In this document: piece after piece, positions 21,364 to 54,246 of the stretch
How positions within the stretch are numbered: the stretch's first letter is position 1
How the letters are laid out: each line of letters begins with the position of its first letter
Origin: Aromatoleum buckelii
Lineage (GTDB): Bacteria; Pseudomonadota; Gammaproteobacteria; Burkholderiales; Rhodocyclaceae
Assembly (NCBI RefSeq): GCF_012910785.2
Contig: NZ_WTVH02000010.1
Span: forward strand, 1,178,001-1,242,000
Direction: 5' to 3'
Length of the DNA: 64,000 nt
Made by a program: the position numbers and the translations under genes
The notes under the pieces: model-generated
The model's input: the letters and a program-made list of their open reading frames with translations, nothing else
Told to the model about the DNA's origin: nothing
Database searches by the model: none

Positions 21364-26768
<5,405 letters not shown>

Positions 26769-26772
<4 letters not shown>

Positions 26773-28285: not shown

Positions 28286-28308
28286 CGGACGCGCTCGCGC
28301 GTCCGTTT
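28286..28308 (+). terminator. Hairpin after glgA
   Basis: CGGACGCGC and GCGCGTCCG form a 9-bp stem with a 2-base gap, followed by TTT. It lies between glgA and the convergent glycosyltransferase gene and touches the latter's stop codon. Confidence 0.55.
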
Positions 28309-29260
28309 ATGCCGTGGCTTCGGCAAGGACATGCAGCCAGTCATCGACGAAACGCTCGATGTTGAAGCGCTCGAGCGCGACGCGACGGGCCCCGGCGCCG
28401 AGCCGCGCCGCTTCGTCGGGCGCTTCGATCAGGTGCCGCATCGCCTCGACGAGACGCTGCGGATCGGTGTCGAGGAAGCCGGATTCGCCGTTGCGGATCA
28501 CGGTCACGAGTTCGGTGGTCGCGAGCCCGACGACCGGCAGGCCGATCATCATCGCCTCGATCGCGGCCAGCCCGAGGCTCGTCCAACGCACCGGGTGGAA
28601 GTAGAAGCGGTAATGCGACAGAAATTGAGGCAGCTCCGGGTTCGGAATCTCGCCGAGCCCGCCGCTGCATTCGGACGCCATGCCGACGAGGTCGAGCGGA
28701 ACCTGCGCCCGTGCCATCGCGAAGACGTCCGCGCCGAGGCGCCGGCCGCGGCGCGCGATATGGTTCACCACCGCGATGCCGCGCGGCAGCCCGCCTTCGT
28801 AGCGCACGTGCGGCGGCACGATCACGCCGTGGTCGATGACGCGCGTCGGCGTGCGGCCGTTGTCCCACATCAGCGCATTGAACGGCGTGACATGCACCAG
28901 CAGCGTCGCCGGGTCGTCCACCGGGTGGCGCGTGTTCGTCGGATGCACCTGCGGCGTGTCGTGTTCGAGGTAGATGCGCGGCAGGCGCCGCTGCGCCGCG
29001 GACAGCACGCGGTACTGGTCGTCTTCGTAGTGGCTGCGCGACTGGAACAGAATGCAGTCGAACTCGGTCGCCGCAACCTGTTCGAGCGGCAGTTCGACGA
29101 CGTTGTCGCCCCATGGCAGCGCGCCGGCACGCCCCGCATAGCCGGGCGAGCGCGCCGCATCGACGGGAATGTAGAACGTGTGCGGCACTTGGCTCAGGTA
29201 GTAGAGGTAGTTGCCATGCACATGCCACGTGAAGATGCGCAGCGGGGCGGACGATCGCAT
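28307..29260 (-). CDS. Glycosyltransferase family 1-like protein
   Basis: 317 residues. It starts at ATG 29260 (RSSAPLRIFTWHVHGNYLYY); an upstream ribosome binding site is weak. The GT-B C-terminal half has FHPVRWTSLGLAAIEAMMIG near residue 220, which is the EX7E-like donor loop, then VVGLATTELVTVIRNGESGF. The N-terminal half has YLEHDTPQVHPTNTRHPVDD. The family acts on envelope polysaccharide, often in operons with heptosyltransferases, as here. Acceptor and donor are unknown. It is the last gene of the leftward cluster from 33051. Confidence 0.82.
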   Translation of the reverse strand: MRSSAPLRIFTWHVHGNYLYYLSQVPHTFYIPVDAARSPGYAGRAGALPWGDNVVELPLEQVAATEFDCILFQSRSHYEDDQYRVLSAAQRRLPRIYLEHDTPQVHPTNTRHPVDDPATLLVHVTPFNALMWDNGRTPTRVIDHGVIVPPHVRYEGGLPRGIAVVNHIARRGRRLGADVFAMARAQVPLDLVGMASECSGGLGEIPNPELPQFLSHYRFYFHPVRWTSLGLAAIEAMMIGLPVVGLATTELVTVIRNGESGFLDTDPQRLVEAMRHLIEAPDEAARLGAGARRVALERFNIERFVDDWLHVLAEATA

Positions 29261-29280
29261 GAGGTTTTTTCCGCGTGCAG

Positions 29281-30432
29281 TCAGAAGAGGTCGTGTTCGC
29301 CGGCGCTGATCGCCGGCAGCGGGACGGAAGACTGTTCGGCGCCCAACTCCAGCAGTTCGCGTGCGGCTTCGGCAACGCGTTGCGGGTCGAGCAGCCGCAG
29401 GCAGTTGTGGTGCCCCTGCGGGCACACGCTGCGGTAGCAGAAGCGGCAGGGCACATCCTCGTAGAGCACGCGATGCGCGACTTTCCACGGCGCGTGCTGC
29501 GGGTTCGTCAGCGCATAGATGTCGACGACCGGCGTGCCGACCGCGGCGGCGAGATGCACCGGGCCGGTGTTGTTCGCGATCAGCACCGCGGCCGAATCGA
29601 TGACCGCCGCGAGTTCGCCGAGCTGGAGCCGGCCGGCGAGCGACGGCAGGCAACTGCCGGCGAGCGAACGGATCGTATCGACCAGCGCTCGTTCGGATTT
29701 ATCTCCGGTGAAGAGGATCTGGAACGCCTGGCCGCCGCCCGCGAAGCCGAGCACGCGCTTCACGACTGCGGCGAAATGCTCTTCCGGATAGCGGCGCGAC
29801 GGCGCCGACGCGCCGGGGTGGATGACGACGTACGGCCGCTCGGGGTCGATGCCCTCGCCGCGCAGCAGCGCGCGTGCATGGATCTTGTCCTCGTCGCGCA
29901 GCCGGAAGGACAGGCGGCGGTCATTGCAGCTCGCGCCGACCGCGGCGACGAGGTCGAGCTGGCGGCGCACCTCGTGGCGCAACAGTTCCTGCGGCTCCGG
30001 GTCCTCGATCCAGTCGGTCAGGAGCTGATACGGGTTCTCGCGGCAGTGCGCGAGCCGCAGCGGAATGCCGGCGAGCCAGCACAACATCGCCGCAGGCAGC
30101 GCGCTCTGGCTATAGACGGTGAAGATCACGGCCGCATCGAAGCGCCGCTCGCGCAGCCGCTGCACGGCGTCGATGAGCTCGCCCGGCGGGCTGTCGGTGC
30201 CCGGCATCCACGGCGCGCTGGACATGACGATGGCGTCGTCGACTTCCGGCACGAACGGCACTGCGGCCGCTCCCGACGCGGACGTTAGCAGCGTGATGTG
30301 CCGGCCCGGCACGGATTCGCGCAACGCCCGGATCGCTGGGGTGGTCATCAGCACGTCGCCGAGGTTGTCGAGCCGCACCACGAGGATGCGCCGTGCCTCT
30401 TTCCAGCGCGCGGCGCGGGTCAGCGCGTCCAT
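29281..30432 (-). CDS. GT9 family heptosyltransferase-like protein
   Basis: 383 residues. The N-terminal domain starts ILVVRLDNLGDVLMTTPAIR near residue 15, typical of ADP-heptose:LPS heptosyltransferases. The C-terminal ADP-heptose site contains HPGASAPSRRYPEEHFA near 218 and NNTGPVHLAAAVGTPVVDIY near 315. A Cys-rich segment (PCRFCYRSVCPQGHHNC) lies near 350. It probably transfers heptose in inner-core LPS or a related polymer. The gene overlaps the HAD phosphatase upstream by 13 bases, consistent with one heptose pathway cluster. Confidence 0.88.
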   Translation of the reverse strand: MDALTRAARWKEARRILVVRLDNLGDVLMTTPAIRALRESVPGRHITLLTSASGAAAVPFVPEVDDAIVMSSAPWMPGTDSPPGELIDAVQRLRERRFDAAVIFTVYSQSALPAAMLCWLAGIPLRLAHCRENPYQLLTDWIEDPEPQELLRHEVRRQLDLVAAVGASCNDRRLSFRLRDEDKIHARALLRGEGIDPERPYVVIHPGASAPSRRYPEEHFAAVVKRVLGFAGGGQAFQILFTGDKSERALVDTIRSLAGSCLPSLAGRLQLGELAAVIDSAAVLIANNTGPVHLAAAVGTPVVDIYALTNPQHAPWKVAHRVLYEDVPCRFCYRSVCPQGHHNCLRLLDPQRVAEAARELLELGAEQSSVPLPAISAGEHDLF

Positions 30433-31067
30433 TCCGGCTCGTCCGTCTGCCACACCGTGAATCCGCTCTCGGGTTCCGTCGCGATGCGATGGGACGCTTC
30501 GGCCGGCGTCCAGTCGAGGATGCCGTCCACCGCTTCGACGAGGCTCGAGGCGACGAGGTCGGGCTCGCGCATCGGTCCGCGGCGCCATTCCGTTTCCGAC
30601 CCGACCGCGAGCAGCACGGTGCGACAGCCGGCCCGTCGCCCGGCTTCGATGTCGTCGAGGATGTCGCCGATCAGCCACGAGCGCTGCAGGTCGAGGCGGT
30701 GGTCCTCCGCGGCCTGCAGCAGCAGGCCGGGTTCGGGCTTGCGGCATTCGCACCGGCTGGCGAAGCGGGTGTCGGTGCCCTGCGGATGGTGGGGGCAGTG
30801 GTAGATCGCGTCGAGCACGACCCCGTACGGCGACAGCAGCGCGGCGATCGCGGCCCACACCGCTTCGAGGGCATCGGGCTCGAACAGGCCGAGCGCCACG
30901 CCCGGCTGGTTCGTCACGAGGATGAGGCGGTAGCCGTGGCGCTGGAGCCGGGCGAGGGCTTCGCCTGCGCCTTCGCACAAACGTACTTTGGTCGGATCGA
31001 CGTTGTACGGCACGTCGTCGATCAGCGTGCCGTCCTTGTCGATGAAAACCGCAGCATTCAGGGCCAC
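30420..31067 (-). CDS. gmhB: HAD-IIIA phosphatase, D-glycero-heptose bisphosphate phosphatase-like
   Basis: 215 residues from a GTG (31067) behind GGGGGAGA. FIDKDGTLIDDVPYNVDPTK carries the HAD nucleophile and acid Asp pair (DKDGT). LVTNQPGVALGLF is motif II, and IGDILDDIEAGRRAGCRTVL holds motif IV. The zinc-binding cluster YHCPHHPQG and CECRKPEPG is typical of GmhB. The enzyme dephosphorylates heptose-1,7-bisphosphate in ADP-heptose synthesis. It overlaps the SDR gene upstream by 10 bases. Histidinol phosphatase is the main alternative but lacks this setting. Confidence 0.85.
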   Translation of the reverse strand: MALNAAVFIDKDGTLIDDVPYNVDPTKVRLCEGAGEALARLQRHGYRLILVTNQPGVALGLFEPDALEAVWAAIAALLSPYGVVLDAIYHCPHHPQGTDTRFASRCECRKPEPGLLLQAAEDHRLDLQRSWLIGDILDDIEAGRRAGCRTVLLAVGSETEWRRGPMREPDLVASSLVEAVDGILDWTPAEASHRIATEPESGFTVWQTDEPEWTR

Positions 31068-31795
31068 GATGTCTCCCCCATCGGCAGCACGGTGATCTCC
31101 GGCACGACGCTGTCCGGCGGCATCTGCAGCACCTGCACGACTGCCGCTGCGACCGTCGCGGGTTCCTGCAGCGTCGCCAGGTCGATGTCCGGAAAGCGGT
31201 CGAGCAGGAAAGGCGTGCGCATGCCGCCGGCGATGACCGCGGTGACCTTGATGCCGAGCGGGCGCAACTCGGCGTGCAGCGCGTGCGAGAAGCCGAGCAG
31301 GCCCCATTTGCTGGCGTGATACACCGAGGCGTTCGGCCACGCGCGCTTGGCCGCGGTCGAGGTGATGTTGATGATGTGGCCGCTGCCGAGCGGGCGCATC
31401 TGTTCGAGCACGCGCTTGCAGAACAGGAATGGTCCGCGCAGGTTCGTCGCCATCACGTGGTCCCACTGCGCCACTTCGAGCTCATCGAGCGGCAGCGTGT
31501 AGTCGACGCCGGCGTTGTTGATGAGGATGTCGATCGCGCCGAAGCGCTCGCGTCCGGCGTCGAGGCAATCCGCCACCTGTTGCTCGTCGCCGACGTCGAC
31601 GGCGCAATGCATCGTCTGGTACCCCTTGTCGGTCAGCGCCAGCGCGGCCTGCTCGGCGAGATCGGCCCGCACGTCCGCGATGATGACGCGCGCCCCGCCC
31701 GCGCCCAGAGCCTCGCACAGGGCCTTGCCGAGCCCGCGTCCGCCACCGGTGACGAGAGCGGTCCTGCCCTCGAGGGGAGTGTGCTGGAGAGTCAT
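31058..31795 (-). CDS. SDR family oxidoreductase
   Basis: 245 residues. TALVTGGGRGLGKALCEALG carries the TGxxxGxG cofactor loop. NNAGVDYTLPL, the catalytic Ser in NITSTAAKRAW and YHASKWGLLGF (YxxxK) are all present near residues 90, 142 and 158. Asp after the second beta-strand (IIADVRADLA) suggests NAD preference. It may reduce or epimerise a sugar for the neighbouring glycosyltransferases; the substrate is unknown. Its start overlaps the upstream glycosyltransferase stop by four bases. Confidence 0.87.
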   Translation of the reverse strand: MTLQHTPLEGRTALVTGGGRGLGKALCEALGAGGARVIIADVRADLAEQAALALTDKGYQTMHCAVDVGDEQQVADCLDAGRERFGAIDILINNAGVDYTLPLDELEVAQWDHVMATNLRGPFLFCKRVLEQMRPLGSGHIINITSTAAKRAWPNASVYHASKWGLLGFSHALHAELRPLGIKVTAVIAGGMRTPFLLDRFPDIDLATLQEPATVAAAVVQVLQMPPDSVVPEITVLPMGETSWP

Positions 31796-33051
31796 AAGCC
31801 GATCGTCCTTTCAGTGATTTGGAACGCGGGAGCGGGTTGCACGGCGCGGTAGACGGTCTCGAGCGCGCTCGTCACGCGCTGCCATGTGAAGCCGCTGCGC
31901 ACCCGCCGCATGCCGGCGCGACCGAACATCCGCCCGAGCGACGGTTCGCGCTGCAGGCGGGCGAGACGCGCGGCGAGCGCCTGCGGGTCGTTCGGCGGCA
32001 CGAGAAACCCCGTGACCCCGTCGACCACCGTGTGCTTGATGCCGCCGACCTTCGCGCCGATCACCGGGCAGCCGCAGGCCATCGCTTCGAGCGGCGTGAT
32101 GCCGAACGGCTCGTACCATGGCGTCGTGACGAACACATCGACGCCGCAATAGAAGTCGCGAAGTGCCGCGCGGGGGCGCCGCCCGGTGAAGATCACGCGT
32201 TCGGCCACGCCCTCGGCCTCGGCGATGTCCGCGAGGCGGCCGATTTCGGGCGTCAGCGCAGGATCGGGCTGGTCCGACTCGCCGCCGACGACCAGCAGCG
32301 TCGCCTCGATCCCGTGCTGCCGCCGCAATTCGGCGATGCCGCGGATGACGTTGTCGATGCCTTTGCGGGGCACCACGCGGCCCAGCTGCAGGACCACGAA
32401 CTGGTCGTCGGCGATCCCGAACTCCTTGCGCAGCGGACGCCTTCCGGGCCCCAGTTCGGTAGTATCGACGCCGCATGGCACGACCGCGACCCGCTCGGGT
32501 GGCGCGTCGTAGAGGTCGACGAGATCGCAGCGATCCTGCGGGCATTCGGCAATGATGCGGTCCGCCGAGGCGACCAGCAGCTCCTCGATGTCCGTTCGCG
32601 ACGCCGGAAATCCGTCCGCGCTGCCCTGATGCAGGCGACGCACTTTTCCGAGCGCATGGAACGTGATGACGAACGGCGTGCCGTATTCCTCGCGCATCCT
32701 CAGCGCGGCGATGCCGGACATGAAGAAGTTCGCATGGACGACGTCGTACGGCCGCCGCCCGGCGCAGCAGGCGATGACGCTTTCGCTGAATTCCTCCATG
32801 TGCGGCAGCAGCGCCTCCTTCGCGATGAAGCACGGCGGCCCGGCCGGGACCGGGATCACCCGCACGTTCTGGCCGAAGCGCACGACAGGCGGCAGGTCGG
32901 GACTGTCCCGCCGCGTGTAGACATCCACGCTGTGCCCCGCGCGTCCGAGTTCGCGGGCGACGTAGGCGACGTAGACATTCTGGCCGCCGCTGTCGACGCT
33001 CCCGAGGGTCGCGAGGGGAGAGGCGTGTTCGCTGATGAGTGCAATTTTCAT
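31792..33051 (-). CDS. Glycosyltransferase family 4, sucrose-synthase-like GT-B
   Basis: 419 residues. ALISEHASPLATLGSVDSGG with QNVYVAYVARELGR is the N-terminal pattern of the sucrose synthase/MshA-like GT4 subgroup. VHANFFMSGIAALRMREEYG and TFHALGKVRRLHQG follow. The donor site has LGRVVPRKGIDNVIRGIAEL near residue 225 and TPWYEPFGITPLEAMACGCP near 315. The ATG at 33051 is the family-consistent start. It heads a five-gene operon and is preceded by a good sigma-54-type promoter (33097-33111). Confidence 0.88.
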   Translation of the reverse strand: MKIALISEHASPLATLGSVDSGGQNVYVAYVARELGRAGHSVDVYTRRDSPDLPPVVRFGQNVRVIPVPAGPPCFIAKEALLPHMEEFSESVIACCAGRRPYDVVHANFFMSGIAALRMREEYGTPFVITFHALGKVRRLHQGSADGFPASRTDIEELLVASADRIIAECPQDRCDLVDLYDAPPERVAVVPCGVDTTELGPGRRPLRKEFGIADDQFVVLQLGRVVPRKGIDNVIRGIAELRRQHGIEATLLVVGGESDQPDPALTPEIGRLADIAEAEGVAERVIFTGRRPRAALRDFYCGVDVFVTTPWYEPFGITPLEAMACGCPVIGAKVGGIKHTVVDGVTGFLVPPNDPQALAARLARLQREPSLGRMFGRAGMRRVRSGFTWQRVTSALETVYRAVQPAPAFQITERTIGL

Positions 33052-33096
33052 GTTGTCGCCGCCTATGCTGTCGTACGGGGTGCTGCACCCGCATCG

Positions 33097-33111
33097 GCAA
33101 GCTCTGTGCCC
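33097..33111 (-). promoter_or_regulatory. Candidate sigma-54 promoter for the glycosyltransferase operon
   Basis: On the minus strand the site reads GGGCACAGAGCTTGC: GG-N10-GC spacing, GGCACA at -24, TTGC at -12. The predicted start is near 33086, 35 bases before the ATG at 33051. Confidence 0.6.
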
Positions 33112-33184
33112 GGACGGAATAGGGGACATCGGCGATCCGGCCCGCGCCGGGCGATGTAAGTTCGCATGGACTGCGGAGAAGGAG

Positions 33185-33712
33185 TTACAGCGGCCGCGGA
33201 TCCGACGGCGCCTTGTCAGGTTCGCCACCGTCCTGCCGGAGCACGGTGATCGTGCCATTGCTTTCCATGAACGCGGCACGCACTTCCGCCAGATCCTCGA
33301 TGCCGTGTTCGCGCAGCTTCGAGCGCAGCTCCTCTTCGCTCATGAATTCGCGCCGCAGGTTGCGGTGCAGGATCTGCCCTTCTCGCACCAGCCGCAGCGT
33401 CGGCGGCTGCAGCAGGCGGCGCAGGCGCTCGGAGCGGAACGCGAGGTAATCGAAGATGACGTTCCACGCGACGATCGTGGCGACCAGTATCAGCCCGTCG
33501 GTGATCGAGCGGTATTCACCCGCCATCGCGTTCTGCGCCGCGTCGGCGATGAGCACCAGCAGCAGCACGTCGGCGACCCCGACGGCCCCAATGTCGCGCT
33601 GCAGGATCGTGCGGAACATCGCCAAGATCGCCCAATAGACGATCGTGCCGCGAATGATGAGCTCGAGCGGCGAAACCGTCAGCGCAAACATTTCGTTCCA
33701 GTCGATCGTCAT
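33185..33712 (-). CDS. DUF421 family membrane protein (YetF-like)
   Basis: 175 residues with GGGAGA before the ATG. Three membrane helices occupy the first 90 residues (LIIRGTIVYWAILAMFRTIL, GVADVLLLVLIADAAQNAM and GLILVATIVAWNVIFDYLA). The soluble C-terminal domain (DUF421 core) has LVREGQILHRNLRREFMSEE and ESNGTITVL. YetF-type proteins are inner-membrane proteins of unknown molecular function linked to stress and sporulation envelopes. It lies 133 bases upstream of the glycosyltransferase operon on the same strand and divergent from the sigma-54 activator gene. Confidence 0.85.
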   Translation of the reverse strand: MTIDWNEMFALTVSPLELIIRGTIVYWAILAMFRTILQRDIGAVGVADVLLLVLIADAAQNAMAGEYRSITDGLILVATIVAWNVIFDYLAFRSERLRRLLQPPTLRLVREGQILHRNLRREFMSEEELRSKLREHGIEDLAEVRAAFMESNGTITVLRQDGGEPDKAPSDPRPL

Positions 33713-41609: not shown

Positions 41610-42053
41610 ATGGCAAGCATCAATCCTCCCGGGACCCCCAGCACTCAGCAGGCCGGCATCGTCGGCTCGGGAATCGAAGACTCCAGCGGACCCGGCCCCG
41701 AAGTCATGGCGGCAAGCACCCTGGAAGGTGATGACGTCGTCAATCGCGCCGGCGAAGACCTGGGCAACATCAAGGAGATCATGATCGACGTGCAGAGCGG
41801 GCGCGTTGCATACGCAGTGTTGTCGACGGGCGGATTCCTCGGCCTCGGCCGCAAGCTCTTTGCAATCCCGTGGGGCGCCCTGACGCTCGACACGGACCGC
41901 AAGTGCTTCATCCTCGACGTGGACGCCGAACGGCTCAGGAACGCCCCGGGGTTCGACAAGGACCACTGGCCGACCATGGCCGACCCGACATGGGCAAGTG
42001 AAATACACGCCTATTACGGCCAGCGGAACTACTGGCAGTCCCCGAGTCCTTGA
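41610..42053 (+). CDS. PRC-barrel domain protein
   Basis: 147 residues with AAAAGGAG before the ATG. The PRC barrel runs from about residue 34 (ASTLEGDDVVNRAGEDLGNI) through IMIDVQSGRVAYAVLSTGGF and KLFAIPWGALTLD. PRC-barrel proteins of this small, stand-alone type are found in stress-response clusters of Betaproteobacteria, often next to BON or CsbD proteins; the substrate is unknown. A strong terminator follows 18 bases after the stop. Confidence 0.9.
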   Translation: MASINPPGTPSTQQAGIVGSGIEDSSGPGPEVMAASTLEGDDVVNRAGEDLGNIKEIMIDVQSGRVAYAVLSTGGFLGLGRKLFAIPWGALTLDTDRKCFILDVDAERLRNAPGFDKDHWPTMADPTWASEIHAYYGQRNYWQSPSP

Positions 42054-42162: not shown

Positions 42163-44886
42163 ATGAGAGCTTCCTCGCCGCCCTCGACGCGCGGCTTCGT
42201 CCTGCGCCTGCTGTCGGCAGCGGTGCTCCGCTATCCGCAACGCACTGCCGTGGCGCTCGGCTTGGTCGTCCTCGCGAAACTCGCCGTGGTCGCCGTGCCG
42301 CTGGCGCTGAAAGCGATCATCGACAACCTCGGCGCCGCCCCGGTCGCCGTCCTCCCGGTTTTCCTGCTGCTCGGCTACGCGCTGCTGCGCTTTCTCGGCA
42401 CGTTCTTCAGCGAAGTGCGCGACGTGGTGTTCGTGCTCGTCACACAGAAGACGGTGTCGGGATTTCTCCTCGACGTATTCCAGCACCTGCATCGCCTCAG
42501 CTCGCGTTTCCATGCCCAGCGCCGCATGGGCGGCGTCACGCGCGACGTCGAGCGCGGTACGGCGGGCATCGGTTTTTTGCTGGGCGTCGGGCTGTTCACG
42601 ATCCTGCCGACGATGGTCGAAATCATCGCAGTGATCGTGATCATGACGCTCAACTACAGCGACTGGTTCACCGGCGTCATCCTCGCGACCTTCCTCGTGT
42701 ATTCGAGCTTCACGGTGCTGTTCACCGAGCGCCGCGCAATCTACCAGCGCGCGCTCAATGAACTCGATTCCAGCGCCAACGGGCGGCTCGTCGACAGCCT
42801 GCTGAACCACGAGACCGTCAAGTACTACACCAACGAGCGCTACGAGCACCGGCGCTTCGGCACCATCCTCGACGACTGGGTGGACGTCGGCGTCAAGAAC
42901 CAGAAGGCGTTGTCGATGCTGCACATCGGCCAGAGCGCGATCATCGCGGTCGGCGTCGCCATCGTGATGCTGCTCGCGGCGCAGAACGTCGTGCAGGGCA
43001 CGATGACAGTCGGTGACTTGGTGCTGGTCAACGCCTACGTGATCCAGATCTGCCTGCCGCTGAACTCGCTCGGTTTCGTCTTTCGCCAGACCCGCGATGC
43101 GGCGGTCAACGCCGAGAAGATGCTGCGCCTGCTCGAACAGAAGCCCGAGATCGGGGAGGTGGCGCAGGCCGCGGACCTCGCGGTTTCGCGCGGCGAGGTG
43201 CGCTTCGAGCACGTCGACTTCGGCTACGAGTCGAACCGGCAGATCTTGCGGGACGTCAGCTTCACGATTTCGCCCGGCGGCACGGTGGCCGTCGTCGGCG
43301 GCAGCGGTTCGGGCAAATCGACGCTGGCGCGGCTGCTGTTCCGCTTCTACGAAGTCGGCAGCGGGCGCATCCTGATCGACGGCGCCGATATCCGCGAAGT
43401 CTCGCTGCACAGCCTGCGCGCCGCGCTCGGCATCGTGCCGCAGGACACGATCCTGTTCAACGACACCGTCGCGTACAACATCGCCTACGGGCGTCCCGGC
43501 GCGTCGCTCGCCGAAGTGATCGACGCGGCCAAGGCCGCCCACGTGCACGACTTCATCTCGGCGTTGCCGAACCAATACGACACCGAAGTCGGCGAACGCG
43601 GCGTGATGCTGTCGGGCGGCGAAAAGCAGCGCATCGCGATCGCGCGCGCGATCCTCAAGAATCCGCCGATCCTGGTGTTCGACGAAGCGACGTCGGCGCT
43701 CGACACGCGCTCCGAGCGGGCGATCCAGGACGAGCTCGACCGGCTGGCGAAGACACGCACGACGCTGATCATCGCGCACCGCCTGTCGACGGTCGTCGAT
43801 GCGGACGAGGTCCTCGTGCTCGAACACGGTCGCGTCGTCGAGCGCGGCTCGCACGACCATCTGCTGCGCCAGGGCGGGATCTACGCGCAGCTGTGGCAGC
43901 TGCAGCGCCAGCAGCAGGAAGTCGAGCGCGCCGAACGGGGCCTCGCGACGCAGCAGATCAACCTCGTCGCGCTGCTCGCCGGCGTCGTCGATGGCCTTCG
44001 CGCCACGATCGACGCGCGCGGCATCGGCTTCTACAGCACGATCACCGCCGATCCGGTGCGCATCACCGGCGATCCGGGGCTGCTGCAGCAGGTGATGTGG
44101 GCGCTGGCCGAGAACGCGATCGCCTCCACGCCGCCGGGAGGGCGCGCCGAGTGGCGCATCGAGCGCGTCGGCGAGCGCCTGCGCGTGAGCTTCATCCATG
44201 CCGGGAAGACGGCCGACGCGGAGCCGCCGCCCGCTGCCGGAGTACCGCCGCTCGACCTGACGGCCATCCGCGCGATCGTCGAGCAGCACCACGGCACGAT
44301 CGAGCTGCGGCGCGACCCGGACGGGGACGTGCGGGCGATCGTCGAGTTTCCGCTGCGGGGGGCGCCAGCGATCGGCGCCGTTGCCGCGGAGGGCGGCACC
44401 GAGCCTGTCGCGGGCACTCCGGCGCTCGCGGCGCCGTCGATTTCAGGAATCAACGTGCTGGTCGTCGATGACAACGCCGAAATACGGGCGCAGCTCGAGG
44501 AGATGCTGAACCGGCACGGGGCGTTGTCGCGTTCCAACCCGTCCGGCACAGCGGCCCTCCAGTGGCTGTTCGCACTGCCGCGTTCCCGATGGCCGGACAT
44601 CCTGGTCTGCGACGTCGCGCTCGGCGACGAGGACGGCTACGAGGTGATCCGGCAGCTGCGCCGCTTCGAGGTCGAGCACGGGTTCGGCCTCGCCGACCGT
44701 CTGCCCGCGATTGCGCTGAGCGCCTATCGCGGTGATCACCGCATGCGCGCGATGCTCGCCGGGTTCCAGGTGTGCATCGCCAAGCCGGTCGACGCCGACG
44801 AGCTCGTCGCCGTAATCGCGAACCTTGCCGGACGGCGTGCTGATTCTCCTTCGCCTGCGCCACCGGCCCTCGAACCGCCGCCATGA
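42163..44886 (+). CDS. ABC exporter fused to a degenerate kinase ATPase domain and a receiver domain
   Basis: 907 residues from ATG 42163, a start with only a distant AGGGG; ATG 42130 is an alternative. The first 300 residues are a six-helix ABC-B (Atm1/MsbA-like) membrane domain. The nucleotide-binding domain has GGSGSGKSTLA near residue 379, LSGGEKQR near 484, ILVFDEATSALD near 503 and IIAHRLS near 537. A Gln-rich helix (LWQLQRQQQEVERAERGL) follows. Residues 605-735 align in pattern with a histidine-kinase HATPase (LLQQVMWALAENAIASTPPG), but the G1 and G2 loops that bind ATP are replaced. A receiver spans about 761-880 with Asp817 in LVCDVALGDE and Lys in CIAKPVDADE. Confidence 0.9.
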   Translation: MRASSPPSTRGFVLRLLSAAVLRYPQRTAVALGLVVLAKLAVVAVPLALKAIIDNLGAAPVAVLPVFLLLGYALLRFLGTFFSEVRDVVFVLVTQKTVSGFLLDVFQHLHRLSSRFHAQRRMGGVTRDVERGTAGIGFLLGVGLFTILPTMVEIIAVIVIMTLNYSDWFTGVILATFLVYSSFTVLFTERRAIYQRALNELDSSANGRLVDSLLNHETVKYYTNERYEHRRFGTILDDWVDVGVKNQKALSMLHIGQSAIIAVGVAIVMLLAAQNVVQGTMTVGDLVLVNAYVIQICLPLNSLGFVFRQTRDAAVNAEKMLRLLEQKPEIGEVAQAADLAVSRGEVRFEHVDFGYESNRQILRDVSFTISPGGTVAVVGGSGSGKSTLARLLFRFYEVGSGRILIDGADIREVSLHSLRAALGIVPQDTILFNDTVAYNIAYGRPGASLAEVIDAAKAAHVHDFISALPNQYDTEVGERGVMLSGGEKQRIAIARAILKNPPILVFDEATSALDTRSERAIQDELDRLAKTRTTLIIAHRLSTVVDADEVLVLEHGRVVERGSHDHLLRQGGIYAQLWQLQRQQQEVERAERGLATQQINLVALLAGVVDGLRATIDARGIGFYSTITADPVRITGDPGLLQQVMWALAENAIASTPPGGRAEWRIERVGERLRVSFIHAGKTADAEPPPAAGVPPLDLTAIRAIVEQHHGTIELRRDPDGDVRAIVEFPLRGAPAIGAVAAEGGTEPVAGTPALAAPSISGINVLVVDDNAEIRAQLEEMLNRHGALSRSNPSGTAALQWLFALPRSRWPDILVCDVALGDEDGYEVIRQLRRFEVEHGFGLADRLPAIALSAYRGDHRMRAMLAGFQVCIAKPVDADELVAVIANLAGRRADSPSPAPPALEPPP

Positions 44887-44940
44887 CCTCAACTTGGCGG
44901 TCCCAGCGCTTCCCCGAACCCCACCCCGGAGCAGCCCGAC

Positions 44941-45504
44941 ATGACGACACTGAATGAAGATGCACCTGCCTACCCCGGCACCGGCAGCCACTACCTCACG
45001 CCTGCCGCGGCCCGCCGCGCGATCGCGCTGACGGCGCCGATGATCGAGCACGCGATGCGCGACCGCAGCGTCGTCGGCAGCGGCTTTCTCCACGTCGTTG
45101 TCATGGACCCGTGCCGGCCGCCCGGCGCCACGTCGTTCGAGGAGGCGATCCTGCACGAGCACACGTTCGGCGACCGCACCGCATGGGACGCCGATTACGC
45201 CGCGTTCGCACGCGCGAAGGCGCGGCTGAGCTGGATCACCGGCAGGGACGGCCGGGTCCTGCAGCAGCAGTTCCCACACCTGCTGCGCACCGGCGACACG
45301 CTGCTCGCGGGCGGGGTGTGTCTGGATGGCATCGTCGTCGCCGCGAGCGGCGCGTTTCCGTGGTACGACGAGGTGTTCGCCGGGACCGTCGCGCTGTGCT
45401 TGCGGGCGCTGGCGCGGGAAGCGCGCGAGGCGGAGCGCGACACCCTGAAGCTGGCGCCACGCGCACCCGAGGCGGAACCGCCGTCGCTGTTGCGGCCACG
45501 TTGA
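44941..45504 (+). CDS. Hypothetical protein, GlcG/HbpS-like pattern
   Basis: 187 residues with CGGAG about 10 bases before the ATG. RRAIALTAPMIEHAMRDRSV, VVMDPCRPPGATSF, FARAKARLSW near residue 90 and DTLLAGGVCLDGIVVAASGA near 120 are arranged like the GlcG/HbpS (DUF336) fold, in which VVD, KA and GGxPL motifs recur. The match is weak: typical key residues are not all present, and a Cys-rich variant loop is seen. I would call it hypothetical with this tentative relationship. It sits 54 bases after the ABC-receiver fusion and could be its partner. Confidence 0.55.
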   Translation: MTTLNEDAPAYPGTGSHYLTPAAARRAIALTAPMIEHAMRDRSVVGSGFLHVVVMDPCRPPGATSFEEAILHEHTFGDRTAWDADYAAFARAKARLSWITGRDGRVLQQQFPHLLRTGDTLLAGGVCLDGIVVAASGAFPWYDEVFAGTVALCLRALAREAREAERDTLKLAPRAPEAEPPSLLRPR

Positions 45505-45621
45505 GGATCCGATCGGTGGCGGAGGACGCCAGGCACCCCAATTGCTCTTCCATGCGTGCCACGTGCATGCGGGCTGCACTCGTTCCCCGCGCCCCGCATC
45601 CGCCGGGCCACGGAGGCAGTC

Positions 45622-46411: not shown

Positions 46412-46561
46412 CCCCGTGAAGGCCGTGACCCGACAGGGGATGCGGCCAGAGGGCCCCTATGCCGAGTGACACAAGCGGGGCCCGCGGCGAACTCGCCCGC
46501 GCTCCTCGCGGATGCCGACCGTCGATCGAAGCGTTTTCCGGAACGGCCCGCCACAATCAAA

Positions 46562-47607
46562 TCAGGGCCCGGGCGGAAGATGGTCGGCTCCTCGGTCCTC
46601 CGCAGGCCCATGGGCAGAGATCAGGTTGTGGGCGGAGTTGATCAGCGCGATGTGGGAGAAGGCCTGCGGAAAGTTGCCCAGTTGTCGCTTCAGCCGGGGG
46701 TGGTATTCCTCGGACAGAAGGCCAAGATCGTTGCGCAGCGCAAGCAGCTGCTCGAACAAAGCGAGCGCGTCATCGCGACGGCCGAGCATTAGGTAGGCAT
46801 CGACGAGCCAGAAGGTGCAGGCGAGAAACGCACCCTCGTCGCCCTCCAGCCCATCGGGCGTCTCGTTCGAGCGGTAGCGCAGCACCAGACCATCCACCCG
46901 CAATTCCCGCTCGATCGCCTCCACAGTGCTCGCGAAACGGGGATCCGCGGCGGGCAGGAACCCGACCTGGGCCATCAGCAGCAACGAGGCATCGAGTGCG
47001 CTGCCGCCGTAGTACTGCACGAAACTGCGCTTGGCCTCGTTCCAACCGTGGCGGCAGATATCGTCGTGAATCTGTTCGCGTATCGCACGCCAGCGCCCGA
47101 TCGGCCCTTCGAGCCCGAAGCCTTCCACGGCCTTGACGGCACGGTCGAACGCCACCCAGCACATCAGCCGCGAGTGCGTGAAGTGGCGCTTGCCCCCGCG
47201 CACCTCCCAGATCCCCTCGTCGGGCTGGTTCCAGTCCTCCTCCAGCTGGCGCAGGATGGTTTTTTGCAGGCGCCAAGCGTGCTCGCTCGCACCAGCCGCA
47301 CCAGATCGATGTAGTGCTCGTCGTCGGTGAAGGGCATGAAGTCGATCAGCGTGACCCGGCCTTCGTCGGTTTCGAAGGTGGTCTCGAGAATCGCGGTGTT
47401 GGGGCGGTAGCGGCGGGTGACTTTCCGCACCGGGGCGGTCGGCGCGATCTGCTATGAGCCGTTGTCCTCGTCGCCGAGCACGAGGGCGAAGCAGGCGTCG
47501 CTGTCGAAGCGGGGCAGGCAAAGCCAGTCGATCGAGCCGTCCCGCGCCACCAGCGCGCCGGTAAAGGTGTTGCCGATGAAACCGTAGTCTTCGATGGGCT
47601 TGCTCAT
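46562..47607 (-). pseudogene. Glycoside hydrolase family 15 (glucoamylase/trehalase-like), broken
   Basis: The start at 47607 gives [20 protein letters not shown], the usual N-terminus of GH15 proteins of about 600 residues. An in-frame TAG at 47452-47454 follows DEDNGS. The frame then continues to VTLIDFMPFTDDEHYIDLVR near 47290, after which the text shifts frame. It joins a C-terminal half (LQKTILRQLEEDWNQPDEGI, WEVRGGKRHFTHSRLMCWVA, ALINSAHNLISAHGP). About 250 residues normally carrying the catalytic core, including the general acid Glu, are missing at this junction. So it has a nonsense codon plus an internal deletion with a frameshift. The SDR gene ends 4 bases upstream, so both were one operon. 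Confidence 0.85.
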
Positions 47608-47610
47608 GGC

Positions 47611-48447
<837 letters not shown>

Positions 48448-48588
48448 GGCGTGGGCGATTCAGTGTTCACCAAGCATGGCTCGCTGTGACTAGCGTTTGT
48501 ACTGAAAGCGGCTGATGTCGCTGGTGCGGCGGTTCGCGGCAAAACGCGGATCCGGCCTAACGCTTCGTAAGGCGTCCGGGTGGGTCTG

Positions 48589-49149
48589 CTATTTGCCGCG
48601 CAACGGCTGCAACGCGCCAGTCCAAGCCACCAGCTGGTCCAGCATCGCATTAACAGACTTCTCGTGATGCGCAGCAGGCTTGAAGGTGCTGAAGTTTTCG
48701 AAGTCGGTGAAGAGCGAGAACATCACTTGGTTACGGACTGTGGCCACCTGAACTTCGGCCATGACCAGCCGCAGGTGCTCGACCGCCCGGGCGCCACCCG
48801 CACTGCCGTAGCTGACGAAGGCAGCGGCCTTGTTGTTCCATTCCTTGTACAGGTAGTCGATGGCGTTCTTCAGAGCCGCTGACGTGCCGTGGTTGTACTC
48901 TGGAGTGACGAAGACGAAGCCATCGAAGGAATCGATTTTCGCCGCCCACGCCTTCGTGTGGGGCTGGCTGTACTGTCCCCTCGATGGCGGTACCGGCTCG
49001 TCGAGCAGCGGCAAATTGGCCTCCTTGAGATCCACGAGCTCGAACTGGGCATCGGTCCGTCTCGAAGCGATGTCGAATACCCATTTCGCCACCGCCTCGC
49101 CATTGCGCCCGGGACGGGTGCTGCCAATAATCACTGCAATCTTGATCAT
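48589..49149 (-). CDS. NADPH-dependent FMN reductase
   Basis: 186 residues with AGGAAT before the ATG. IAVIIGSTRPGRNGEAVAKW is the flavodoxin-like FMN phosphate loop. FVFVTPEYNHGTSAALKNAI carries the conserved PEYN motif near residue 82. GSAGGARAVEHLRLVMAEVQ follows. It resembles ArsH/ChrR-type quinone or azo-reductases of the FMN_red family. It probably reduces quinones or other electrophiles in the cytoplasm. No neighbour indicates the substrate. Confidence 0.9.
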   Translation of the reverse strand: MIKIAVIIGSTRPGRNGEAVAKWVFDIASRRTDAQFELVDLKEANLPLLDEPVPPSRGQYSQPHTKAWAAKIDSFDGFVFVTPEYNHGTSAALKNAIDYLYKEWNNKAAAFVSYGSAGGARAVEHLRLVMAEVQVATVRNQVMFSLFTDFENFSTFKPAAHHEKSVNAMLDQLVAWTGALQPLRGK

Positions 49150-49301
49150 GTTGGTATTCCTTCTGTTGTTCGCCGGTAGAGCAAGCTGCGAGCGGTAAAG
49201 TTAAGCTCGACACCGGGCCGATAGCCTAAGCTCTGGCGCTCAACATCACTCGTGCAGCGTCACCCCATGCAGTGGTCGAAAGCCCCGACGAAGCCAGAAA
49301 C

Positions 49302-50531: not shown

Positions 50532-50601
50532 GATCGGGCCTCCCGCCGTCCGGTGAATGCTCGTCCGGCCCGCCTCGCGCCCGCAGGCCCCGCAGCAGGG
50601 C

Positions 50602-51111
50602 TCACGACGATTCGTGGAGACAGGCGAAATAGTACGGCACGCGCATCAGTGCGTAGTGTGCGCCTGCATCCCTGACTTCGTTGCGACCACCGGAAAAACG
50701 GTGTGTTTCGCTGAAGATCGCCGGATCGTCGTCGTCGTTTTTGCCGGTGCGGAACGCCCAGGCGAAGCACTGCGTTCCGGCCGGAATTTCATCGTCGACC
50801 GCTTCGGCGACGCCGGTGTTCGCGATCGCCAGGTTCGCGGCGCTTTTTTTCAGTGCTCCTTGCGCCATTTCGCGCGCGACTTCTTCGCTCGTCAGGTTGA
50901 AGCGTTCGATCGTCTCCCGCTTCACGCCGAGGCACTGCTCTTTCGCTTCGCACGAATAGACCACATACGCGCAGTCGAGCAGCGCGCCGGCGCCCGGGAT
51001 GTCTGCCAACCGCGCCGCGATCAGCCCGGCGGTACAGGACTCGGCAGTCACCAGCACGAGCCCGTTCTGCTTCATGAACGCTGCAATGTCTTCGATCGGT
51101 TCCATTTTCAT
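50602..51111 (-). CDS. CinA C-terminal domain family amidohydrolase
   Basis: 169 residues. VLVTAESCTAGLIAARLADI near residue 20 carries the Ser of the nicotinamide nucleotide amidohydrolase (PncC) site, and GALLDCAYVVYSCEAKEQCL and TGVAEAVDDEIPAGTQCFAW follow. Canonical PncC has GIAGPxGG in place of GVAEAVDDE, so substrate may differ. The protein lacks the CinA N-terminal MoCF-like domain. It is a cytoplasmic enzyme of NMN recycling in the family. It lies 70 bases upstream of serA and 92 bases downstream of a small membrane protein gene. Confidence 0.85.
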   Translation of the reverse strand: MKMEPIEDIAAFMKQNGLVLVTAESCTAGLIAARLADIPGAGALLDCAYVVYSCEAKEQCLGVKRETIERFNLTSEEVAREMAQGALKKSAANLAIANTGVAEAVDDEIPAGTQCFAWAFRTGKNDDDDPAIFSETHRFSGGRNEVRDAGAHYALMRVPYYFACLHESS

Positions 51112-51203
51112 CGCGTTTCCCGTTGTCGCGCAGCACCGCCCGGAGCGGCGTCGTAAGCCGGTCGAGCAATTGCGGTGCCTCGCCAGGCGGTGGTGAACAC
51201 GGA

Positions 51204-51689
51204 CTATCGACGCCGCCGATCGCGATGCAACGTCCGGGTGAGGGACGGCAACATGAGGCCCAGCGCGAACGCGAGATAGACCACGGCCAGCGATTCGGGA
51301 CTCAGGCGGCGCTCGAATCCGGGCGTCAGCCGTTCCGGCGTCAGACGCAGATCGACGAAGCATGCGGCGGCCGACACGCCGAGCGCCGTGGCGATCGTGC
51401 GCGCTGCGCCGACCCGCGGTCCGGCGCGGGCAATGCGTTCCTCGAACAGCAGCGCCCACAGGATCGACATCGCATGGTGGATGCCGGCGCCCGGGAGCGT
51501 ATATCGCAGGGAAGGCTTCTGCTGGCGCAGCGCGACGCCGCGCCAGATCCAGTGGCTGACCGCATTGACCGGCGCGAACACGCTGCAACAATCGCGCTGG
51601 CCGCCGCAGGCAAGCGCGACCAGCGAGACGATCCCGGCACCGCTGCCGGAAACAACGGCGTGGCGCAGCACGCGCAGCCAGTCGGTCAT
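51204..51689 (-). CDS. Hypothetical membrane protein
   Basis: 161 residues; CGGAG lies about 9 bases before the ATG. Several hydrophobic segments are visible: VVSGSGAGIVSLVALACGGQ, GAGIHHAMSILWALLFEERI, IATALGVSAAACFVDLRL and LAVVYLAFALGLMLPSLTRT. No catalytic motif is recognised. Similar proteins occur in Burkholderiales and Rhodocyclales without a known role. It is divergent from the epimerase-DoxX gene with 93 bases between. Confidence 0.65.
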   Translation of the reverse strand: MTDWLRVLRHAVVSGSGAGIVSLVALACGGQRDCCSVFAPVNAVSHWIWRGVALRQQKPSLRYTLPGAGIHHAMSILWALLFEERIARAGPRVGAARTIATALGVSAAACFVDLRLTPERLTPGFERRLSPESLAVVYLAFALGLMLPSLTRTLHRDRRRR

Positions 51690-51782
51690 GGTTCGCTCCG
51701 TCGGTCTGGATGATGGAAGAGGGCGGGAGCCCGCTTTTGCGTCACGTATGCAAGCGCGGAGCCCGCGTGCAGGAGAAGCGCG

Positions 51783-53090
51783 ATGAACATCCTGATCACC
51801 GGCGGAACCGGCTTTCTCGGCAGCCATTTCGTCACTCGGCTCGCACGCGAAGGGCACCGGCTGACCCTCGCCGTGCGCGACCCGCAACGCGCCCGCGCCC
51901 GTTCGAATGCCACGGCGCTCGACTATGCTGCAGTCGATTTCATGCGCGCGACCCGCAGCGCCGACTGGCTGCCGATGCTCGGCGGAATCGACGTCGTCAT
52001 CAACGCGGTCGGCATTCTGCGCGAAAGCGGGGGGCAGACGTTCGACCTGCTGCATCGGCAGGCGCCGGCGGCGCTGTTCTCGGCGTGCGCCCAAGCCGGC
52101 GTGAAGCGGGTGATCCAGATTTCCGCGCTCGGTGCGGATGAGCACGCGCAAAGCGGTTACCACCGGAGCAAGCGCGCCGCCGACGAAGTGCTGCTCGGGC
52201 TGCCTGTTGCGGCCGCGATCGTGCAGCCTTCGCTGGTGTATGGGGCCGGCGGCACGAGCGCACGGCTTTTCGGCGTGCTCGCGTCGCTGCCGCTGATCCC
52301 ACTGCCGGGGCGCGGCGACCAGCGGGTGCAGCCGGTGCATATCGACGACCTGGTCGAACTCGTCGTGCGGCTGGTCGACGGCGAGCTGCCGGAAAACTCG
52401 CGCATCGCCGCAGTCGGGCCGCATGCGCTGACGCTGCGCGAGTTTCTCGCGGCGCTGCGCAAGGCGCTTGGCATCACGCGTCCGCCCCATTTCATCCCGG
52501 TGCCGGATGTGCTGACCGACAGTGCGGCAAAAGTCGCCTCGATGCTGCCCGGCGCGCTGCTCGACGTCGAGACGCTTGCGATGCTGCGGCGGGGCAACAC
52601 TGCCGACCCATCGATGATGCGCCGGCTGCTTGGCCGCGAACCGCGCGGGGTCGAGGACTTCATCCCGCGTCGTGAGGCCGGCGCGGCGCGCCTCGGCGTG
52701 CAGCTGCAATGGCTGCTGCCGGTGCTGCGCGCGAGCATCGCGTTCGTCTGGATCCTGACCGGCATCGTCTCGCTCGGCGTCTTCCCGGTCGCCGACAGCC
52801 ATGCGCTGCTCGCCCGGGCCGGCGTGCCGGAAGCGCTGCGTCCGGCCGCGCTGTACGGCGCCGCGCTGCTCGACCTCGCGCTCGGCGTGCTGATGCTCGC
52901 CGGGCGAGGGCGCGCAGCGGTGCTCGTCGTGCAGGCGGGGCTGATCCTCGCTTATACCGCGATCATCAGCTGGAAGCTCCCCGAGTTCTGGCTCCACCCC
53001 TATGGCCCGGTATCGAAGAACTTGCCGATGCTCGCGGCAATCTGGCTGCTGTACGAACTGGAATCGCACCGGTGGAATACCAATACCTGA
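51783..53090 (+). CDS. NAD-dependent epimerase-like protein with C-terminal DoxX-like membrane domain
   Basis: 435 residues with CAGGAG before the ATG. Residues 1-290 are an SDR extended-type fold: ILITGGTGFLGSHFVTRLAR (GxxGxxG), VINAVGILRESGGQTF and YHRSKRAADEVLLGLPV. It resembles NDUFA9-like or YbjT-like SDRs more than sugar epimerases. Residues about 315-430 hold four membrane segments (RASIAFVWILTGIVSLGVF, AALYGAALLDLALGVLMLAG) of the DoxX-like family. The combination occurs in some proteobacteria. It may handle membrane-associated quinone or lipid substrates, but that is inference. A DUF2269 gene overlaps its end by 19 bases. Confidence 0.87.
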   Translation: MNILITGGTGFLGSHFVTRLAREGHRLTLAVRDPQRARARSNATALDYAAVDFMRATRSADWLPMLGGIDVVINAVGILRESGGQTFDLLHRQAPAALFSACAQAGVKRVIQISALGADEHAQSGYHRSKRAADEVLLGLPVAAAIVQPSLVYGAGGTSARLFGVLASLPLIPLPGRGDQRVQPVHIDDLVELVVRLVDGELPENSRIAAVGPHALTLREFLAALRKALGITRPPHFIPVPDVLTDSAAKVASMLPGALLDVETLAMLRRGNTADPSMMRRLLGREPRGVEDFIPRREAGAARLGVQLQWLLPVLRASIAFVWILTGIVSLGVFPVADSHALLARAGVPEALRPAALYGAALLDLALGVLMLAGRGRAAVLVVQAGLILAYTAIISWKLPEFWLHPYGPVSKNLPMLAAIWLLYELESHRWNTNT

Positions 53091-53545
53091 TCGTCAAGTG
53101 GGTGCACATCCTGTCGTCGACGGTGCTGTTCGGCACCGGCATCGGCAGCGCGTTCTATCTGCTGCGCGCGAGCCTCGAACGCGATCCGCTTGTCGCCGCA
53201 TCGGTTACGCGCAGCGTCGTCGTCGGCGACTGGCTGTTCACCGGCACCACCGTCGTGCTGCAGCCGCTGACCGGATTCTGGCTGACCGCGCTGGCCGACG
53301 TCCCGCTCGACAGCCGCTGGATTGCCTGGTCGCTGGTGCTCTATGTGCTCGCGGTCGCGTGCTGGCTTCCCGTCGTCGTGATCCAGATCCGCCTGCGTGA
53401 TGTCGCCGTCGAAGCGGCGGAAAACGCTCGTCCGCTGCTCCCGCCCCGCTACTGGCGACTGTTCCGTGTGTGGTTTGCGCTCGGCGTGCCGGCATTTCTT
53501 GCATTCGTCGGTATCTTTTACCTGATGGTCGCCAAGCCGATATGA
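53072..53545 (+). CDS. DUF2269 family integral membrane protein
   Basis: 157 residues from a GTG start overlapping the upstream gene by 19 bases. YLIVKWVHILSSTVLFGTGI, VVVGDWLFTGTTVVLQPLTG, WSLVLYVLAVACWLPVVVIQ and FALGVPAFLAFVGIFYLMVA form four membrane helices, with His near residue 12 and other polar residues like the DUF2269 family. It is of unknown function, with a gene order conserved next to the epimerase-DoxX protein. They probably form a membrane complex. Confidence 0.8.
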   Translation: MEYQYLIVKWVHILSSTVLFGTGIGSAFYLLRASLERDPLVAASVTRSVVVGDWLFTGTTVVLQPLTGFWLTALADVPLDSRWIAWSLVLYVLAVACWLPVVVIQIRLRDVAVEAAENARPLLPPRYWRLFRVWFALGVPAFLAFVGIFYLMVAKPI

Positions 53546-53579
53546 CATTGACCGGACGCCGGCAGCCTTCCGCTGCCGC

Positions 53580-53635
53580 GGGACCGGCCCTTGCTCCATC
53601 GGCTGCGGACCGGTCGCCCGGCCATGGAGCAAGGG
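53580..53635. promoter_or_regulatory. Long inverted repeat and sigma-54-like element before the hemerythrin gene
   Basis: CCCTTGCTCCAT (53588-53599) and ATGGAGCAAGGG (53624-53635) pair perfectly across 24 bases. The left arm overlaps GGACCGGCCCTTGCT (53581-53595), which has GG-N10-GC spacing and TTGCT but only a partial -24 match. It may be a hairpin, an operator or both. No gene is seen in 53546-53725. Confidence 0.4.
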
Positions 53636-53725
53636 ACTGGTCCGGACTTTCGGCGACGACCTTCCGGGTCGATCTTCCGGCGGTCTTGTGTGGCCGCTTC
53701 AACAATCCGATCGAGGAGAAACATC

Positions 53726-54196
53726 ATGAACAAGTCGAGCCTGCCCACCGGTCTCAAGGACGCCCTCGGCGCCCTGCTCGAGGATCACCGCAAGGTCAAC
53801 AAGCTCTTCGGCGACTTCGAGAAGGCGAAGACGAGCGAGGAGAAAGCCGAGATCGCCCGCACCGTCTGTAATGAACTGACAGTCCACGCAACGCTCGAGG
53901 AAGAGCTGTTCTATCCTGCCGTGCGGGAAATCGATCCCGAGAAGTTCGGCGATCTGCTCGACGAGGCGAAAGTCGAGCATGCCACCGCGAAGGACCTGAT
54001 CGCGCAAATCGAGGCGATGGGCCCGGACGACGAACTGTTCGATGCCAAAGTCACAGTGCTCGGCGAATATGTCAAACACCACGTGAAAGAGGAAGAAGAG
54101 GAGCTGTTTCCGAAACTCGTTGCGGAGAAGTGCGACCTGCGCCCGATCGCCGAGAAAATGGAAGCACGCCGCCCGGCGCTGTCGAAGGCGGCATAG
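53726..54196 (+). CDS. Hemerythrin domain protein
   Basis: 156 residues with GAGGAG before the ATG. The hemerythrin HHE motifs are present: LLEDHRKVNKLFGDFE near residue 20, VHATLEEELFYPAVRE near 53, VEHATAKDLIAQIE near 84 and YVKHHVKEEEEELFPKL near 113. These supply His and Glu ligands for a di-iron site. Roles in the family include oxygen or nitric oxide sensing, iron-sulfur repair and stress protection. It stands alone, with the tRNA-Val pair downstream. Confidence 0.9.
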   Translation: MNKSSLPTGLKDALGALLEDHRKVNKLFGDFEKAKTSEEKAEIARTVCNELTVHATLEEELFYPAVREIDPEKFGDLLDEAKVEHATAKDLIAQIEAMGPDDELFDAKVTVLGEYVKHHVKEEEEELFPKLVAEKCDLRPIAEKMEARRPALSKAA

Positions 54197-54246
54197 CCGG
54201 AGTCCGGGGCGGCTGCTCAAGGGCCCGATTTGCCGCGATTGTCGCC

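Follow-up and report, generated by a model that had tools for sequence, protein, structure and literature searches.

A candidate phosphorylation-gated Atm1-type exporter linked to a glycan gene cluster in Aromatoleum buckelii

In a 64,000-nucleotide stretch of the Aromatoleum buckelii genome (the window), we found that one gene (42163-44886) joins an Atm1-type exporter of the ATP-binding cassette (ABC) superfamily to a degenerate catalytic and ATP-binding (CA) domain of the histidine kinase type and then to a receiver domain. We propose that this fusion protein is a dedicated exporter of the glycan or glycoside made by a linked gene cluster, that it is gated by phosphorylation of its receiver, and that its dead CA domain acts as a docking module. 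We put the probability of this proposal, which is built on sequence comparisons, at just over one half (roughly 0.52). An earlier analysis of the DNA letters alone (the sequence-only reading) had suggested that this might be an undescribed system, and indeed no fusion of an ABC exporter with a CA domain and a receiver is described among the matches listed in openly licensed literature.

The gene reads through 907 amino acids in one frame without an inner stop. The same frame extends upstream to a GTG at 41998; the putative start is the ATG at 42163, which gives a protein beginning MRASS, and two relatives (L006 and L041) begin in the same way. Within this frame, Pfam identifies ABC_membrane (amino acids 31-296, 113.8 bits), ABC_tran (362-511, 113.5 bits), HATPase_c (636-732, E = 3.5e-6, barely significant because its 27.8 bits just exceed the cut-off of 26.4), and Response_reg (765-885, clear at 60.8 bits, E = 1.7e-16). 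We also found 15 full-length relatives that are 49-96% identical to the window protein. They represent three or more families within a single order, and all have the same architecture; the closest, L006 from A. anaerobium, is 96% identical along the whole fusion. Because 15 full-length relatives share the architecture, the fusion is not a frame artefact. The sequence-only reading had described an intact ABC-B exporter joined to a kinase-like ATPase domain without HisKA and to a complete receiver with Asp817 and a conserved lysine, and the description of these parts stands. It had also allowed that a stop or frame error might split the domains, or that the C-terminus might prove to be a separate gene in homologs; all 15 of the other sequences are fusions in one frame.

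To describe the tail, we aligned 16 fusions (the window protein, L006, L041-L046, L058-L062, and L064-L066) with five complete kinases. In the fusions, the nucleotide-binding domain (NBD) of the exporter passes, after its last helix, straight into what lies behind HisKA in the kinases, and the junction is the point where a hybrid kinase's HisKA helices would end. We also built a HisKA plus HATPase profile of 225 positions from the five kinases. Its best match begins at position 72-75, past HisKA, in 16/16 fusions, and ends at position 155-165 in 15 of them and at 195 in L062. HisKA with its phospho-accepting histidine is absent from all 16 fusions, as the profile match starts beyond it.

The ATP-binding boxes of the CA domain have decayed as well. 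The sequence-only reading held that the N box was kept, which is true of its second asparagine in 6/16 fusions but of its first asparagine in none. It also held that G1 and G2 were lost. This is right for the full patterns (each in 0/16) and for the stretch between them, which by both alignment and profile is mostly deleted, but single positions still agree in some fusions: the aspartate of G1 in 5/16, its first glycine in 6/16 (and its second in none), and one glycine of G2 in 1/16. The phenylalanine of the F box is found in 0/16. The five comparison kinases retain every N, G1, F, G2, and receiver position that we scored. We modelled the tail with AlphaFold, a check that the sequence-only reading had proposed. 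The model, from a shallow alignment of eight sequences (pLDDT 73, pTM 0.49), comprises a CA core, whose lid (amino acids 681-697) has low confidence, and a receiver of higher confidence, with the relative placement of the domains unsure; its best fold match is the hybrid kinase ShkA, followed by DivL and other kinases. From the residues, our best reading is that the CA domain is dead for ATP binding.

The receiver looks to be the sole part of the tail that is chemically alive, and it is apparently phosphorylatable at Asp817. Asp817, the Ser/Thr, and Lys874 are each present in 16/16 fusions and the acidic pair in 15/16. Few columns are invariant across the 16 fusions: 15 of 128 in the receiver and 5 of 139 in the CA domain. 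For six pairs of fusions, we computed the ratio of nonsynonymous to synonymous substitution rates (dN/dS) by the Nei-Gojobori method. It was 0.05-0.24 for the transmembrane domain, 0.06-0.16 for the NBD, 0.06-0.49 for the CA domain, and 0.08-0.37 for the receiver. The low values for the CA domain and the receiver imply that both added domains are maintained by purifying selection. The linker between them (20-25 codons) gave 0.90, 0.23, and 1.66 in three Aromatoleum pairs and, in the other pairs, 0.43, 0.25, and one value that was not computable; these are rough because the linker is short.

The sequence-only reading left two linked parts unnamed: a small gene (44941-45504) and a glycosyltransferase cluster (28307-33051). 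In a sample of 150 genomes of the family, the small gene is present in seven, which are exactly the seven that carry the fusion, and it is also present in 5/5 further fusion genomes. In four genomes (G245, G465, G492, and G130) it either shares a contig with the fusion at a long distance or is on a different contig. (In G130, the window's block of kinase, BON, PRC, small gene, and MgtC (L124, C3:216001-232000) lies on a different contig from the fusion; this genome also has BON and PRC adjoining its fusion.) The small gene is found in 0/3 genomes whose cluster contains an unfused exporter, and in 2/8 other cluster genomes without the fusion, one of these being a match of only 46 residues. Because it is present in 12/12 fusion genomes and in few genomes with the cluster alone, the small gene tracks the tail more closely than it tracks the cluster, and its product is likely to be a partner of the added domains. 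This protein has no match in NCBIfam or among PDB sequences and no significant match in Pfam (a lone match, E = 0.076, in one of eight members). Its AlphaFold model, from two sequences, is poor (pLDDT 52), and the best Foldseek matches of that model are Ragulator chains (E = 0.042), so a roadblock-like fold is a lead at most.

These observations bear on two other explanations for the tail. First, the CA domain and receiver might be constitutive dimerisation or docking modules, for example for the small protein, and work without phosphorylation. The loss of the CA boxes would fit this, as would one relative (L044) without the acidic pair and the presence of the small gene with the fused form in 12/12 genomes versus 0/3 with the unfused cluster exporter. 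But one would expect a phosphorylation site to decay in a pure scaffold, and here the site is conserved despite the divergence of the domain, so we consider this explanation rather unlikely. Second, the tail might be a sensor or a sink: movement of, or flux through, the exporter would alter the receiver's access to a kinase and thereby report on export, or the receiver would just drain phosphate from another pathway. Fusions that signal from a transporter to a kinase are known, judging from excerpts of two reports (PMC9100948, PMC5715377), and conservation of the receiver site is compatible with such a role. The known fusions are described as kinases, however, and the absence of HisKA and loss of the CA boxes in 16/16 fusions leaves this protein with no kinase output of its own. 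A sensor or sink therefore seems unlikely to us.

We next consider the exporter itself. Its core is of the Atm1/ABCB7 type by similarity, with intact NBD motifs; the best solved relative is NaAtm1 (4MRN; 532 bits, E = 1.3e-158, phmmer). The available portions of a study of AtAtm3 name eight conserved residues of the glutathione pocket: T317, R324, R328, N387, Q390, L433, G437, and R441 (PMC9000953). The equivalents of R328 and N387 in the window protein are Gln195 and His254, so its pocket departs from the Atm1 type as given there. Glutamine and histidine are found at these positions in 16/16 fusions and in 3/3 unfused exporters from comparable clusters (L085, L088, and L089), versus arginine and asparagine in 25/25 other Atm1-type exporters that we compared (the 23 best-scoring unfused matches with loci from the family sample, plus L055 and L056). 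In a midpoint-rooted tree of the cores, the 16 fusions lie on one side of a branch with moderate support (89/90; present in 90% of the bootstrap trees), and the fusions and the three unfused cluster exporters are joined (100/100), apart from the 25 others. The simplest and most likely history would be that a specialised cluster exporter gained the tail once; alternatively, the tail may have been lost in the three unfused cluster exporters.

The fusion is linked to a set of glycan genes. In the relatives, it adjoins genes for a family 1 glycosyltransferase (GT1), a short-chain dehydrogenase (SDR), a HAD-family hydrolase, a family 9 glycosyltransferase (GT9), a carbamoyltransferase, a family 2 glycosyltransferase (GT2), and a PIG-L deacetylase. 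The cluster in the window is a reduced form of this. The carbamoyltransferase is present in 12 of 15 loci examined and is absent from the window's cluster; a candidate elsewhere in the same genome was rejected, as the one match (at C5) is only 40% identical. Among 399 genomes sampled from the order, 18 have the cluster GT1, and all seven fusion carriers are among them (P ~ 1e-10 on the assumption, which does not hold, that genomes are independent). Within the family sample, it is present in 7/7 genomes with the fusion and in 0/2 congeners without it. Overall, GT1 was found in 12/12 fusion genomes checked, at 0.2-32 kb from the fusion, and in the fetched DNA of 15 of the 16 aligned loci, the sequence of L006 being too short to tell. 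Eleven genomes have GT1 without the fusion, and in three of these (G381, G494, and G287) an unfused exporter of the same subgroup lies beside GT1. The GT9 and HAD genes suggest that the product might be a heptose-containing glycan or glycoside.

A congener (G137; L126 and L127) provides a natural absence. The region of the window is kept there at 86-94% DNA identity, with gaps. One gap (28293-30274) covers the second glycosyltransferase and most of GT9; another (31088-33565) covers the SDR, most of GT1, and part of a DUF421 gene; and a third (42170-45616) covers the fusion and the small gene, with the flanking alignments abutting. The net effect is that G137 is without the fusion, the small gene, and 4/5 cluster genes, although remnants of GT1, GT9, and DUF421 persist. 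G137 retains the kinase, BON, PRC, and MgtC genes at 86-89% DNA identity, and the sigma-54 regulator is also present.

The kinase retained in G137 is the hybrid kinase at 37224, which the sequence-only reading put forward as a possible phosphodonor. As a general rule, we reject it as the dedicated donor. Its sensor is found in 5/12 fusion genomes, in G137 (at 92% identity), and weakly in 1/67 other genomes searched, while 7/12 fusion genomes are without it. The retention of this kinase in a genome without the fusion counts against its being specific to the fusion.

Might the protein instead be a standard member of the Atm1 type that exports glutathione-bound metals or sulfur, its tail decorative and its link to the cluster no more than a reflection of shared ancestry or location? 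NaAtm1 is its best solved relative, six of the eight pocket positions named in the AtAtm3 excerpts are kept, and the relatives of the fusion are not independent. Nevertheless, the pocket change separates the 19 fusion and cluster exporters from all 25 others, the fusion and the cluster genes are jointly absent from G137, and 6/7 of the family genomes that carry the fusion hold a second Atm1-type exporter. We consider this explanation improbable. (The window's own genome (G000) has no second Atm1-type exporter at E <= 1e-110 beside the fusion. At this limit, the congeners G044, G100, and G137 have an unfused Atm1-type exporter, and 128 of the 150 family genomes have at least one Atm1-type match.)

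In the genome samples, near-full-length matches (58-100% identity) are present in 7/150 genomes of the family (G000, G100, G026, G130, G003, G075, and G013). Of 399 genomes from the order, 10 match at E <= 1e-60, with seven full-length fusions and three matches to the NBD only. The class sample (369 genomes) has matches in G000 and to a kinase in G710, and the phylum sample (398 genomes) has matches in G000, G426, and G454, all found already; these samples overlap. Among plasmids, 7 of 25 records that match at E <= 1e-100 cover at least 80% of the query, on replicons of Paraburkholderia, Caballeronia, Cupriavidus, and Burkholderia multivorans. Where these proteins have an annotation, it is "ATP-binding cassette" or "ABC transmembrane domain-containing protein". 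Our inspection of plasmid records set aside four fusions (H2, H5, H6, and H7) and a shorter match (H17). Scanning contigs of close relatives with the tail gave six loci, of which one is a fusion and the other five read as kinases. The genome searches scored four to six candidates per genome at strict E limits and gave the best coverage in one order, other groups being covered by samples or scans of close relatives, so more distant or independent fusions elsewhere could have been missed. The weak HATPase_c match might have suggested an error of sequencing or assembly, or a fusion that arose recently by chance, but both are ruled out by 15 relatives, down to 49% identity, in several genera and on several replicons and under purifying selection.

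Several observations weigh against our proposal of a receiver-gated glycan exporter. Six of the eight glutathione-pocket positions named in the excerpts are unchanged. In one relative (L044, from G003; L044:7964-10645), the acidic pair is replaced by Ala-Gly while the aspartate and the lysine are retained, and because of this loss phosphorylation is probably dispensable there. The CA domain evolves quickly, as its few invariant columns show, and so may be a mere spacer. No one kinase accompanies the fusion: a kinase gene is present in the fetched flanks of 8 of the 16 fusion loci, but these kinases vary in length and kind. Of the 11 genomes that have the cluster but not the fusion, 8 showed no exporter of the subgroup in the 18-20 kb fetched around GT1. 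Since G381, G494, and G287 have unfused exporters within clusters of this kind, the tail is dispensable for export as such. Finally, G137 keeps the HAD gene of the cluster between its first two gaps, and large gaps at two further places (46490-49297 and 50563-54224) take out genes not known to be connected with the fusion. Because this region is variable, the joint absence is supportive, not decisive.

In our proposal of a receiver-gated exporter, an Atm1-type exporter would already have been specialised for the cluster, as suggested by its changed pocket and by the unfused versions that persist in the cluster in other bacteria. It would then have acquired its tail, a CA domain and receiver from a hybrid histidine kinase, most likely once and directly behind the NBD; afterwards, ATP binding by the CA domain would have been lost and the phosphorylation site of the receiver retained. 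Since no kinase is built into the fusion, the signal must originate in one that acts in trans, and a histidine kinase would phosphorylate Asp817. The dead CA domain would keep the receiver beside the NBD, and the receiver would alter its contacts and so free or block closing of the NBD, so that the glycan or glycoside would be exported solely under the right signal, with the small protein as a likely partner of the added domains. The exporter is the only output attached to the receiver, and control of export by phosphorylation would be the simplest inference. We infer phosphorylation and its sign, the donor, the substrate, the gating, and the role of the small protein in the fusion system. A more specific version is tentative, and we think it somewhat less probable than even: that the exporter acts as the output domain of a response regulator, that the receiver, docked to the NBD by a dead kinase domain, gates export of a heptose-type glycan in response to a histidine kinase, that the exporter dimer replaces the HisKA helices, and that the small protein is an obligate partner.

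Table 1. The fusion gene, its domains, and linked genes in the window
Feature	Position	Strand	Evidence
Fusion gene: Atm1-type ABC exporter, degenerate kinase CA domain, and receiver; 907 aa	42163..44886	+	Translation, Pfam, full-length relatives
Exporter transmembrane domain, ~aa 14-330; pocket Gln195, His254	42202..43152	+	Pfam ABC_membrane, pocket table
NBD, ~aa 340-585; motifs GGSGSGKST, LSGGEKQR, ILVFDEATSALD	43180..43917	+	Pfam ABC_tran, translation
Degenerate HATPase (CA) domain, aa 596-735	43948..44367	+	Pfam, residue table, model, fold matches
Receiver, aa 762-890: Asp769/Asp770, Asp817, Ser853, Lys874	44446..44832	+	Pfam, residue table, model
Small linked gene, 187 aa	44941..45504	+	Co-occurrence; in 12/12 fusion genomes checked
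Glycosyltransferase GT1/GT4 of cluster	31792..33051	-	Pfam, co-occurrence
Short-chain dehydrogenase (SDR) of cluster	31058..31795	-	Pfam, synteny
HAD-family hydrolase of cluster, GmhB-like by reading	30420..31067	-	Pfam, synteny; HAD-IIIA annotation in Paraburkholderia relative
Glycosyltransferase family 9 (heptosyltransferase family) of cluster	29281..30432	-	Pfam, synteny
Second GT1-type glycosyltransferase of cluster	28307..29260	-	Pfam, synteny

Elsewhere in the window, the gene at 21364-26772 encodes a protein of 1802 amino acids with a 4-alpha-glucanotransferase (GH77) and an alpha-amylase-type domain (TreY-like by reading). It sits within a run of glycogen/trehalose-type genes.

If our proposal is correct, then two-component signalling can act directly on an ABC exporter, and not just on genes. 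The fusion would be a genetically simple system for asking how an added domain gates the NBD dimer, and it comes with an evolutionary series: other Atm1-type exporters, the tailless cluster exporter, the tailed exporter, and the natural absence in G137. The proposal would also single out a conserved unnamed protein family as a likely partner, and it would draw attention to an uncharacterised and perhaps heptose-containing glycan of the order's environmental members.

Each part of the fusion has known relatives. It resembles Atm1/ABCB7 exporters such as NaAtm1 and AtAtm3 in the whole exporter core, in the NBD motifs, and, going by the AtAtm3 excerpts, in most of the pocket. It differs from them in its CA and receiver tail, in the glutamine and histidine of the pocket (19/19), and in the company of glycan genes; no Atm1/ABCB7 member with such a tail is described among the matches listed in openly licensed literature. 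The tail has the same domain order as hybrid histidine kinases (L057, ShkA 6QRJ) have after HisKA, and the L057 kinase, from G710, matches the tail profile across 299 positions (229 bits). The 16 fusions are not themselves hybrid histidine kinases, as they are without HisKA and without complete N, G1, F, and G2 boxes, and they have an exporter in place of a sensor. CbrA and CrbS (SLC5-STAC-kinase proteins), as far as the consulted excerpts describe them, also join a membrane transporter to two-component domains. These are kinases that signal outward; in contrast, the fusion retains only the receiver and by sequence is not a kinase, so a signal would only be able to come in. Rv1747, as excerpts from its literature describe it, combines an ABC transporter with a module for phospho-signalling and is modulated by a cognate kinase (PknF), but its module consists of FHA domains served by a Ser/Thr kinase, with no two-component receiver. 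EpsW is a single-domain response regulator: according to excerpts of its description, its phosphorylated receiver switches a glycan export pathway post-translationally by direct contact with EpsZ (PMC12802240). The likeness lies in a receiver-driven switch of a glycan pathway by direct contact, but EpsW is a separate protein that acts on the first glycosyl transferase (EpsZ) and is not borne by an exporter. By analogy, EpsW and Rv1747 would be precedents for the logic of the fusion, rather than for its parts.

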